Source: Ahrensia sp. R2A130
GTDB lineage: Bacteria > Pseudomonadota > Alphaproteobacteria > Rhizobiales > Rhizobiaceae
Assembly (NCBI RefSeq): GCF_000179775.1
Contig: NZ_AEEB01000003.1
Location: forward strand, 434,001 to 498,000
Length of the DNA: 64,000 nucleotides
Direction of reading: 5' to 3'
Every line of letters begins with the position of its first letter. Position 1 is the first letter of the stretch. The notes under the pieces were generated by a model, which saw only the letters and a list, made by a program, of their open reading frames with translations, did not search any database and had not been told where the DNA came from. This document shows positions 3,933 to 9,551 of the stretch, one piece after another. The position numbers and the translations under genes are program-made.

Positions 3933-6890
<2,958 letters not shown>

Positions 6891-6897
6891 ATTAATA

Positions 6898-6950
6898 AGG
6901 CATTACGTTTACGTAAGGGGCAATGCACTCATTGCATAGCTGCAATGCCT
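6898..6950 (+). repeat. Nested inverted repeats downstream of uvrA
   Basis: An outer 7-bp pair (AGGCATT 6898-6904 with AATGCCT 6944-6950) encloses a perfect 6-bp hairpin (GCAATG 6920-6925, loop CACT, CATTGC 6930-6935) and a short TTACG/CGTAA repeat. It begins 8 bases after the uvrA stop and could form a transcript-end structure, but there is no strong T-tract, so calling it a terminator would be speculative. Confidence 0.4.
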
Positions 6951-7067
6951 ATTTAGCCCTCGTCAAATTCGCCCAGAGTCCTAGATGTGGGTTACGCGAT
7001 GCACAGGCAACGCGCTTTGCAAATGGCGGGCCGCTGATTGGTTCGCACCACATCAAGGAACGAAACC

Positions 7068-7214
7068 ATGGACCTCTTCGACAACATCCGCACTTGGAAC
7101 CGCGTTCGTCAGACGCGCAACGAACTCAACGGCTTGTCTAATCGTGAACTGAACGACCTCGGCATTTCCCGCGGCGACATTCCGTTCATCGCTAAACGCG
7201 CTGTCCGCAGCTAA
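7068..7214 (+). CDS. DUF1127 small Arg-rich protein (CcaF1-like)
   Basis: A 48-residue protein not longer than many spurious ORFs but clearly real: MDLFDNIRTWNRVRQTR followed by the DUF1127 core LSNRELNDLGISRGDI and a basic tail. AAGGAA precedes the ATG. DUF1127 proteins are small, basic and probably nucleic-acid binding; CcaF1 of Rhodobacter sphaeroides is an RNA-binding member encoded directly upstream of CcsR sRNAs that carry anti-Shine-Dalgarno loops. The same arrangement is seen here: three hairpins with CTCCC-containing loops follow within 75 bases. A role in RNA processing or stress response is inferred from that parallel. Confidence 0.9.
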   Translation: MDLFDNIRTWNRVRQTRNELNGLSNRELNDLGISRGDIPFIAKRAVRS

Positions 7215-7279
7215 ATAATAATTTTCGACAAGTGTTTCGGGAACATATTCCCGCGCCACGAGTTTGAAAGATGAAAATA

Positions 7280-7398
7280 AAAATTTCGATCCATCAACCC
7301 TCCCATGATGGGTCGAATTCGCTCTGAAGGCACCTCCTCCCAAGCTTCTCAGAGCAAACTAGAAACGCTCGCTGCTCCTCCCGCAGCGAGCGTTTTTG
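7280..7398 (+). ncRNA. Putative cuckoo/CcsR/alpha-r14-type sRNA with three anti-SD loops
   Basis: Three consecutive hairpins follow the DUF1127 stop codon. Hairpin 1: stem 7286-7296 with 7306-7316 (11 bp, one G-U), loop ACCCTCCCA. Hairpin 2: stem 7321-7331 with 7344-7355 (11 bp with a one-base bulge), loop ACCTCCTCCCAA. Hairpin 3: perfect 13-bp stem 7363-7375 with 7383-7395, loop TCCTCCC, ending in a T-run. Each loop offers a C(C)TCCC sequence complementary to the Shine-Dalgarno GGAGG. Anti-SD hairpin RNAs of this design are known in alphaproteobacteria (cuckoo RNAs, CcsR, the alpha-r14/NfeR1 family), sometimes downstream of DUF1127 genes. Whether it is a separate transcript or a processed 3' UTR is unknown; the 5' end is uncertain. 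Confidence 0.75.
7363..7397 (+). terminator. Rho-independent terminator of the DUF1127-sRNA unit
   Basis: A perfect 13-bp stem (AAACGCTCGCTGC / GCAGCGAGCGTTT) with a 7-base loop, followed by a T-run. The loop itself carries the anti-SD motif TCCTCCC, so the structure doubles as the third sRNA hairpin. The next gene is convergent and ends at 7429. Confidence 0.9.
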
Positions 7399-7428
7399 TT
7401 TCTGCAACTAGCTTAGATGTTAGTCGCG

Positions 7429-8037: not shown

Positions 8038-8135
8038 AAGTTTGGTGTAGCCGAACAACCATGGTGCGACCAGCGGCCCGATACAGTCCAGCAATAGGCT
8101 GTTGTCACCATGCAACGGGCGTTCTAGACGAACGC

Positions 8136-9551
8136 ATGAGCGATAATCCAGTACACATCATCGGCGGCGGTTTGGCCGGTAGCGAAGCAGCTTGGCAGTT
8201 GGCTGAAGCCGGTCACCACGTCATCCTGCACGAAATGCGCGGCATACGCGGCACAGAAGCCCACCAGACAGACCGTTTGGCAGAATTGGTATGCTCCAAT
8301 TCCTTCAGGTCTGATGATGCCCGAGCCAACGCTGTTGGCCTGTTGCATCAGGAAATGCGGATGTCCGGCTCGCTGATCATGCGTTGTGCCGACGAAACGC
8401 AGGTGCCCGCAGGCTCCGCGCTTGCCGTCGATCGCGAGTTGTTTGCCGGTAAGGTCAACGACGCTATCGACGCGCACCCCAATATTACGCTCATCCGCGA
8501 AGAGGTGACGGGCCTGCCACCGAAAGACTGGGGAACGACGATCATCGCCACCGGTCCGCTGACAGCGCCGGACCTAGCCGCATCCATTGCTGCAGAAACC
8601 GGACAAGATGCCCTCGCATTCTTCGATGCAATCGCTCCCATCATCCATTTCGACAGTGTTGATATGGATAAGGCTTGGTTCCAGTCGCGCTACGACAAGG
8701 TCGGGCCCGGCGGCACAGGCAAAGACTACCTCAATTGCCCAATGGACCGCGACCAATACGAAGCCTTCATTGATGCATTGATCGCAGGCGATAAGGCCGA
8801 ATTCAAACAGTGGGAGAACGTACCATATTTCGATGGCTGCCTCCCCATCGAAATTATGGCGGAGCGCGGTCGTGAAACCCCGCGCCACGGCCCGATGAAA
8901 CCAATGGGTCTGACGAATGTTCACAACCCGACGGCCAAAGCCTACGCTGTTGTCCAGCTTCGGCAAGATAACGCTTTGGGAACGTTATATAATATGGTCG
9001 GCTTCCAGACGAAGCTGAAATACGGCGCTCAAACCGAAATTTTCCGGCTTATCCCCGGATTGGAGAATGCGGAATTTGCGAGACTAGGTGGCCTGCACCG
9101 AAACACTTATCTCGATTCCCCTCGCCTGCTGGATGACACGTTACGCTTGCGTTCCCGTCCAGAAGTTCGCTTCGCCGGCCAGATCACCGGCTGCGAAGGT
9201 TATGTGGAATCAGCTACAATCGGCTTGATGACAGGCCGTTTCATTGTGCAGGAACGTGCAGGACATAAGCCTCAGCTACCACCGGAAACAACGGCCATGG
9301 GTGCGCTTCTCAATCATATCACTCGCGGTCACATCGCTTATGACGAACCGCAGGGCAAAAAGAGCTTTCAGCCGATGAACGTCAATTTCGGCCTCTTCCC
9401 GCCAGTGCAGATCGTGAAGCCTGAAGATCACGAAGGTCGTTGGCGCGGGAAGGACAAAGCAATCGCGAAAAAGCGTGCGCTAACCGGCCGAGCGCTTGAT
9501 GATATGGCAAATTGGTTGGCAGAAGAACCTGAAGCCACCGCTGCTGAGTAG
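8136..9551 (+). CDS. trmFO: tRNA m5U54 methyltransferase TrmFO (folate/FAD-dependent)
   Basis: TrmFO (471 residues) makes 5-methyluridine at position 54 in the tRNA T-loop, using methylenetetrahydrofolate and FADH2. The N-terminus has the Rossmann motif [17 protein letters not shown] and the nucleophile-containing [10 protein letters not shown] (Cys53). Later landmarks are [31 protein letters not shown] and the C-terminal [10 protein letters not shown]. An in-frame upstream start at 8061 would add 25 non-conserved residues; the ATG at 8136 places the Rossmann strand at residues 6-16, as usual in the family. It is transcribed alone, convergent with the gene at 9570. Confidence 0.95.

Follow-up and report, generated by a model that had tools for sequence, protein, structure and literature searches.

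The DUF1127 locus at positions 7068-7398 of the window (the whole 64,000-nucleotide stretch of Ahrensia sp. R2A130 DNA analysed here) is, in our judgement, probably an operon of the cuckoo/CIN1 kind, in which one LsrB-activated transcript gives rise both to a DUF1127 protein and to an αr14 small RNA (sRNA) that is released by RNase E and blocks ribosome-binding sites (RBSs). In the proposed mechanism LsrB (VtlR), a LysR-type regulator encoded elsewhere in the genome, would bind at 6924-6946 and activate the promoter at 6959-6986. A single transcript of about 400 nt (from about 6993 to 7398) would then be translated into the DUF1127 protein of 48 aa, and an RNase E cut in the A/U-rich stretch near 7280 would give an αr14 sRNA of about 119 nt, with its own terminator as its 3' end. 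The C-rich loops of this sRNA would pair with GGAGG-type RBSs of other mRNAs, and their translation would be blocked. This anti-Shine-Dalgarno (aSD) action is proposed for the RNA of the window because it is known for a member of the αr14 family, NfeR1 of Sinorhizobium meliloti, whose aSD seeds were reported, by mutation, to repress ntrB (PMC10746234). The features of the locus are listed in Table 1.

Table 1. Observed and predicted features of the DUF1127-αr14 locus, in window coordinates.
Feature	Position	Strand	Details
Predicted LsrB/VtlR operator TGCACTCATTGCATAGCTGCAAT	6924-6946	+	Fits both published boxes exactly
Predicted core promoter	6959-6986	+	-35 CTCGTC (6959-6964), -10 CTAGAT (6981-6986)
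Likely Shine-Dalgarno of the DUF1127 gene, AAGGAA	7055-7060	+	Read from the sequence
Short DUF1127 protein gene, 48 aa	7068-7214	+	ATG, 48 codons, TAA; PF06568
Spacer, 65 nt	7215-7279	+	Between the DUF1127 stop codon and αr14
Candidate RNase E site	7277-7286	+	Inferred; A/U-rich sequence where the sRNA begins
αr14 sRNA, three aSD hairpins	7280-7398	+	Rfam RF02344 (ar14), 69.6 bits
aSD hairpin 1	7285-7317	+	12 bp; loop ACCCUCCCA, a shortened motif
aSD hairpin 2	7321-7355	+	11 bp, one bulge; loop with CCUCCUCCC at 7333-7341
aSD hairpin 3, terminator-like	7360-7398	+	16 bp in the minimum-energy fold; loop UCCUCCC

An Rfam scan of the 64 kb returned one match over threshold, ar14 at 7280-7398. It covers the full length of the covariance model (model positions 1-123 of 123), its score is to be compared with a cut-off of 58.8 bits, and it is the single copy over that cut-off in the genome of the window. 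The Rfam search that the original prediction had asked for was thus run, and it did find an aSD sRNA. RNAfold gave -72.3 kcal/mol for the stretch 7212-7402 (z = -8.4, with none of 200 shuffles as stable). The hairpin coordinates and stem lengths in Table 1 were obtained from the fold of 7280-7398 alone, in which the three hairpins carry unpaired aSD motifs in their loops; the full CCUCCUCCC is replaced by CCCUCCC in loop 1 and by UCCUCCC in loop 3. Three hairpins with C-rich aSD loops had been predicted, and both the fold and the ar14 match bear them out, with some changes in detail. The description of hairpin 2 stands; hairpin 1 has 12 bp and not 11; and the 13 bp given for stem 3 agree with a perfect 13-nt inverted repeat (7363-7375/7383-7395), while the minimum-energy fold extends the stem. 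The locus itself was located correctly, except that its end had been set at 7397 whereas the Rfam match ends at 7398. Hairpin 3 probably doubles as the terminator of αr14. It had been called a perfect terminator; against this, a simple terminator scan found 0 sites, probably because much of the U-run pairs within the stem.

The 48-residue DUF1127 gene of the original prediction was confirmed by a PF06568 score of 54.9 bits (cut-off 23.3). It is the only PF06568 match over the family cut-off in the whole genome, one more match scoring 17.6 bits and lying below it. Among the matches listed, the closest named relatives of the protein come from uncultured Rhizobiaceae-group genomes, with 91% identity over 47 residues. 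NCBIfam gave no family for the 48-aa protein at E up to 0.01, and the opposite-strand open reading frame (ORF) downstream of the locus hit no NCBIfam family (E up to 0.01) and no Pfam family (E up to 0.001). Any action of the DUF1127 protein is presumed from its family, for which published evidence also exists for protein, not RNA, binding (PhoR, Agrobacterium; PMC12501420), and this makes a CcaF1-like role in sRNA maturation uncertain. The RBS of the gene itself was considered as a cis target and rejected, since AAGGAA lacks GGAG and would be a poor target of the accompanying sRNA.

The gene and the RNA were followed in relatives through two samples. ar14 was searched for in the genome of the window and in 100 relatives; of these 101 genomes, 74 had matches at E up to 0.01 and 56 had matches over the family cut-off. 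From the at least 150 matches listed, 111 matches from 52 genomes, those lying within retrieved loci, were examined. A DUF1127 frame ends less than 110 nt upstream in 46 of these 111 (39 genomes, window included); we call these linked, and they form set A1. A1 excludes 45 lone matches, which have no DUF1127 frame in the stretch examined, and 20 matches, mostly tandem copies, whose DUF1127 frame lies 128-389 nt upstream. The second sample was selected through the DUF1127 protein and consists of the best 80 of 149 loci. At least two aSD motifs lie within 320 nt past the stop codon in 72 of these 80, compared with 2.7% of random stretches of the same loci. Set A2 comprises the 55 of the 80 that have three aSD motifs in the expected range, plus the window. 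Since A1 was selected by the RNA model, its structure scores are biased upwards; A2 was selected by protein and then by aSD motifs. Also, related loci are not independent, and several contigs, judging by equal lengths, are common to both sets under different ids.

CIN1/cuckoo loci are characterized by a short DUF1127 gene with an aSD-hairpin RNA behind it on the same strand, and this arrangement was found at 7068-7398. In the window this locus is flanked by ORFs at 3933-6890 and 8061-9551, which we take from their sequences to be UvrA and TrmFO, respectively; the window's UvrA or TrmFO was matched in the fetched flank of 67 of the best 80 of 149 loci, and both in 11. Some relatives depart from the single arrangement. 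Loci L086, L101, L102, L030 and L081 have three or four tandem αr14 copies behind one DUF1127 gene, recalling CcsR1-4. One genome of the same genus (G014, 0.9 Mb) carries a single DUF1127 gene but gave no ar14 match with E up to 0.01; one of the same family (G020, 1.1 Mb) has ar14 over the cut-off with no DUF1127 frame within 1.2 kb upstream.

All 46 sequences of A1, among the matches listed, contain exactly three hairpins with CTCC in the loop or at most 2 nt from it. In the same set (the window and 45 homologues), two-sided changes were found in 28 of 28 consensus pairs, 91.4% of cells are paired compared with 32-44% in slid controls, and none of 500 shuffles reached any of five structure measures. 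The corresponding count in A2, drawn from the best 80 of 149 loci, is 23 of 27 pairs; one row of this alignment (L182) shows an apparent misalignment in hairpin 3. The covariation check proposed with the original prediction therefore came out positive in both sets, and the claim of an aSD sRNA of cuckoo/αr14 design 3' of a DUF1127 gene is now backed by strong covariation and wide conservation.

Upstream of the gene, the predicted operator comprises TGCA-N6-GCAT at 6924-6937 and GCAT-N3-TG-N3-T at 6934-6946. The first is the LsrB box, which at the promoter of NfeR1 is supported by a gel shift and by point mutations (PMC10746234), and the second is reported as the VtlR box (PMC7486931); both lie upstream of the -10 element, as in the LsrB/VtlR regulon. 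On its own, GCAT-N3-TG-N3-T does not exceed chance in the window, with 7 matches and a shuffle mean of 12.1. The composite box has 1 match and a shuffle mean of 0.07, at least one match being obtained in 7 of 100 shuffles. There are five further composite sites in the genome (L112-L116; the reversed-pattern control gave 1), which are possibly regulon members or chance matches. The comparison with relatives supports the box much more strongly than these window statistics. An alignment of genus members shows conserved sequence upstream of the DUF1127 gene. TGCA-N6-GCA was found upstream of the gene in 34 of the 46 ar14-linked loci among the matches listed (shuffle mean 2.2) and in 54 of the protein-selected loci, the best 80 of 149 (shuffle mean 4.0), with none in the scanned stretch of the remaining 12 and 26, respectively. 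Our first pattern, three TGCA repeats, proved overly strict, occurring at 12 of the 46 linked and 5 of the 45 lone matches among those listed, and gave way to this published box.

The spacing between box and promoter is also conserved. From the start of the box to the -10 element, CTANNT, there are 57 nt in the window, and a distance of 57 or 58 nt recurs in the best 80 of 149 loci for 39 of their 75 boxes and in the linked set (among the matches listed) for 22 of 39. A second peak at 35-36 nt (20 of the 75 boxes, again in the best 80 of 149 loci) suggests that some relatives have tandem boxes offset by 22 bp. From the -10 element we infer a transcription start at about 6993. An E. coli-type promoter scan, whose consensus is that of E. 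coli only, gave 0 sites. Control by NtrC was considered and rejected: its site TGC-N11-GCA, which is reportedly limited to plant symbionts (PMC10746234), has 0 matches in the 3119 bases around the RNA (L001), that is, within 1.5 kb of it.

A regulator fitting this box is encoded in the genome. The 298-aa LysR protein of another locus (L003) matches LsrB of A. tumefaciens (PDB 9HH1) over its whole length with 388.8 bits, the next score being 109.7. Its gene adjoins one for a TrxB-like pyridine nucleotide-disulphide oxidoreductase (Pyr_redox_2), which is cut by the end of the locus, and lsrB/vtlR beside trxB is the reported gene order (PMC11975290, PMC7486931). The lsrB orthologue of the window's genome thus stands beside a trxB-like gene. 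The pattern TGC-N7-GCATAGCTGC has two sites in the genome, one in the DUF1127 promoter and one just downstream of the lsrB-like gene; a looser form of the pattern matched at 5 sites, and its reversed control at 2. The second site lies between the LysR gene and a downstream stretch with aSD motifs (L003, G000:C59, 1501-1616, minus strand), in the position where AbcR sRNAs lie in relatives. No AbcR-type Rfam family was found there at E up to 0.1, and an AbcR identity of this stretch rests on position only.

The 5' end of the RNA bears on whether it is cut from the DUF1127 transcript or made separately. Among the matches listed, αr14 starts at most 14 nt from the stop codon in 37 of the 46 linked loci (window counted among the 46). 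RNWUU occurs at -4 to +9 of the ar14 start in 36 of the 46, including the window, against 10.9% of equal windows in the DUF1127 coding sequences of the same loci. Judged from sequence, processing of the sRNA from the DUF1127 transcript is plausible, and a cut by RNase E would fit the A/U-rich start of αr14 and the Rhodobacter case. The alternative is that αr14 has its own promoter inside the DUF1127 gene or the spacer, so that the linkage is mere neighbourhood. It would account for the 45 of 111 examined matches (of at least 150 listed) that stand without a DUF1127 frame upstream; among the matches listed, 16 of the 44 lone ones with at least 300 nt upstream have TGCA-N6-GCA (shuffle mean 1.7; one lone match, G008, with only 22 nt of upstream sequence, was excluded from this count), and NfeR1 is described with a promoter of its own. 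However, an own promoter would have to sit in coding sequence where the RNA begins so close to the stop codon, and the promoter scan mentioned above found none for it, so that we regard this explanation as unlikely. The locus of the window, where the spacer has 65 nt and a further hairpin, belongs to the nine exceptions in the set of 46 linked loci (among the matches listed), and the spacer measures 0-6 nt in ten linked same-genus loci from nine genomes, also among the matches listed. The spacer hairpin (7223-7269), which the original prediction does not mention, has no aSD loop; its energy is -14.7 kcal/mol (z = -1.97), and 11 of 200 shuffles reach the same stability. The spacer could hold another signal; it was rejected as a repeated element, since it occurs only once in the genome (the next-best match has 24 bases, E 0.19).

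Two other explanations concern what the RNA and the protein do. If the hairpins merely ended or protected the DUF1127 mRNA, their C-rich loops having no targets in trans, a terminator-like third hairpin and three stable stems shielding the 3' end would be expected, and these are present. The reported repression of ntrB by the aSD seeds of NfeR1 speaks against this reading, as does the pattern of conservation in A1 (46 sequences, among the matches listed): the invariant columns are the loops, C20-C24 and T56-C62, whereas the stem sequences vary freely. We therefore think it very improbable. A strict counterpart of ccaF1-CcsR would instead have RpoH-type sigma factors and an RNA-binding DUF1127 protein that matures its own sRNA. 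Gene order and aSD design are alike in the two loci, and CcaF1 and RNase E are reported to take part together in the maturation of CcsR (PMC10253847, PMC8625941). Nevertheless, the CcsR1 model (RF02791) scored 20.4 bits on the RNA at 7280-7398, below its cut-off of 65.3, and the conserved promoter element appears to be the predicted LsrB/VtlR box at a fixed spacing to the -10 element. LsrB is said to be unique to Rhizobiales (PMC11975290), so that the control of DUF1127-aSD loci should differ between orders. A strict counterpart is accordingly improbable, and the LsrB-activated operon with an αr14 sRNA remains the preferred reading.

As for the targets of this sRNA, 52 non-overlapping long ORFs of the window, with starts assigned mechanically, were scanned ahead of each possible start for uninterrupted matches to the aSD partner. 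A 6-nt match was found in 1 of the 52 and a 5-nt match in 6, none of them outstanding, so the neighbouring genes, among which tenA, gyrA, dksA and aroF had been put forward as possible targets, make a weak case as a group. Genome-wide, CCTCCTCCC is not enriched, with 11 matches compared with 12 for the reversed pattern. Two further aSD stretches of the genome were rejected as αr14 copies because both fall under the cut-off: the one downstream of the lsrB-like gene (L003, 29.8 bits) and one with 35.9 bits (L002, G000:C34, 1501-1587, minus strand). At a loose ar14 threshold, such matches below the cut-off also occur in 3 of 14 control genomes. The L002 stretch forms two hairpins, one with a CCTCCC loop and a second, terminator-like one with a CCTCCTCCC loop, and lies 3' of a gene that presumably encodes a phasin, judging from its C-terminal sequence. 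A DNA search of 15 genomes of the genus (its own included) found its own copy and one 27-nt match; perhaps it is a young aSD RNA in another 3' UTR.

A wider proposal, which we put forward only tentatively and would rather doubt than expect, is that in many Rhizobiaceae and their kin the redox-activated LsrB/VtlR transcript is bifunctional, the small protein and the 3'-UTR αr14 making up one response. With αr14 starting at most 14 nt from the stop codon, a ribosome at the end of the DUF1127 frame would sit over the RNase E site and hairpin 1, and translation and sRNA release would therefore compete. If this coupling is true, the genome of the window (one DUF1127 gene and one αr14 over the cut-offs, with a 65-nt spacer) would be a minimal, uncoupled natural variant. 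If the joint transcript is real, an sRNA on the same transcript may account for part of the phenotypes that are ascribed, in Rhizobiales, to LsrB/VtlR or to short DUF1127 genes, and mutants with the whole locus deleted would need reinterpretation. The DUF1127-αr14 locus offers a direct test of whether protein and RNA work jointly.

When compared with known systems, the RNA of the window, which scores over the ar14 cut-off, is close in design to NfeR1 (Smr14C2) of S. meliloti, which likewise has three hairpins with hypervariable stems and aSD loops; the NfeR1 promoter is reported to carry TGCA-N6-GCAT at nearly the same distance (LsrB site -72 to -60; PMC10746234). According to published descriptions, NfeR1 is a trans-sRNA transcribed from a σ70 promoter of its own, with six locus copies in that genome and an NtrC site TGC-N11-GCA (PMC7143759, PMC10746234), whereas the αr14 of the window is the only copy over the cut-off, stands behind a DUF1127 gene and is without the NtrC pattern within 1.5 kb. 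In the passages covered by the search, which did not extend to the primary descriptions of cuckoo and CcaF1, no published link of NfeR1 with DUF1127 and no published LsrB-driven transcript carrying both DUF1127 and αr14 was found.

The association of DUF1127 with a CcsR-like RNA has been published as 'CIN1' (PMC10253847). The ccaF1-CcsR1-4 locus of Rhodobacter sphaeroides, as citing papers describe it, shares with the window a DUF1127 gene, an sRNA with aSD loops and a terminator at the end. It differs in having four RNAs compared with one triple-hairpin RNA that falls short of the CcsR model, an RpoHI/RpoHII promoter (PMC10253847) compared with an LsrB-type box, and a protein of 71 aa compared with 48 aa. 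The original prediction of homology to this locus is thus borne out at the level of locus type (CIN1). Its RNA, however, belongs to αr14 and not to CcsR, and the promoter appears to be of the LsrB/VtlR type. The VtlR-activated DUF1127 genes (atu1667 and three Brucella genes) are also alike, with a short protein and a GCAT-N3-TG-N3-T promoter, as are the short DUF1127 proteins of Agrobacterium. VtlR control of DUF1127 genes has been reported (PMC12595884). The papers on these genes deal with the protein or do not decide whether atu1667 acts as RNA (PMC7486931), and in the passages covered they mention no αr14 in the 3' UTR. VtlR-controlled DUF1127 genes, an LsrB-controlled αr14 RNA (PMC10746234) and DUF1127-CcsR operons have each been published, but separately. 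The locus reveals no new system and unites these known stories: here the box, the small gene and the αr14 RNA are combined in one unit, and the genome has no further DUF1127 gene or αr14 over the cut-offs.
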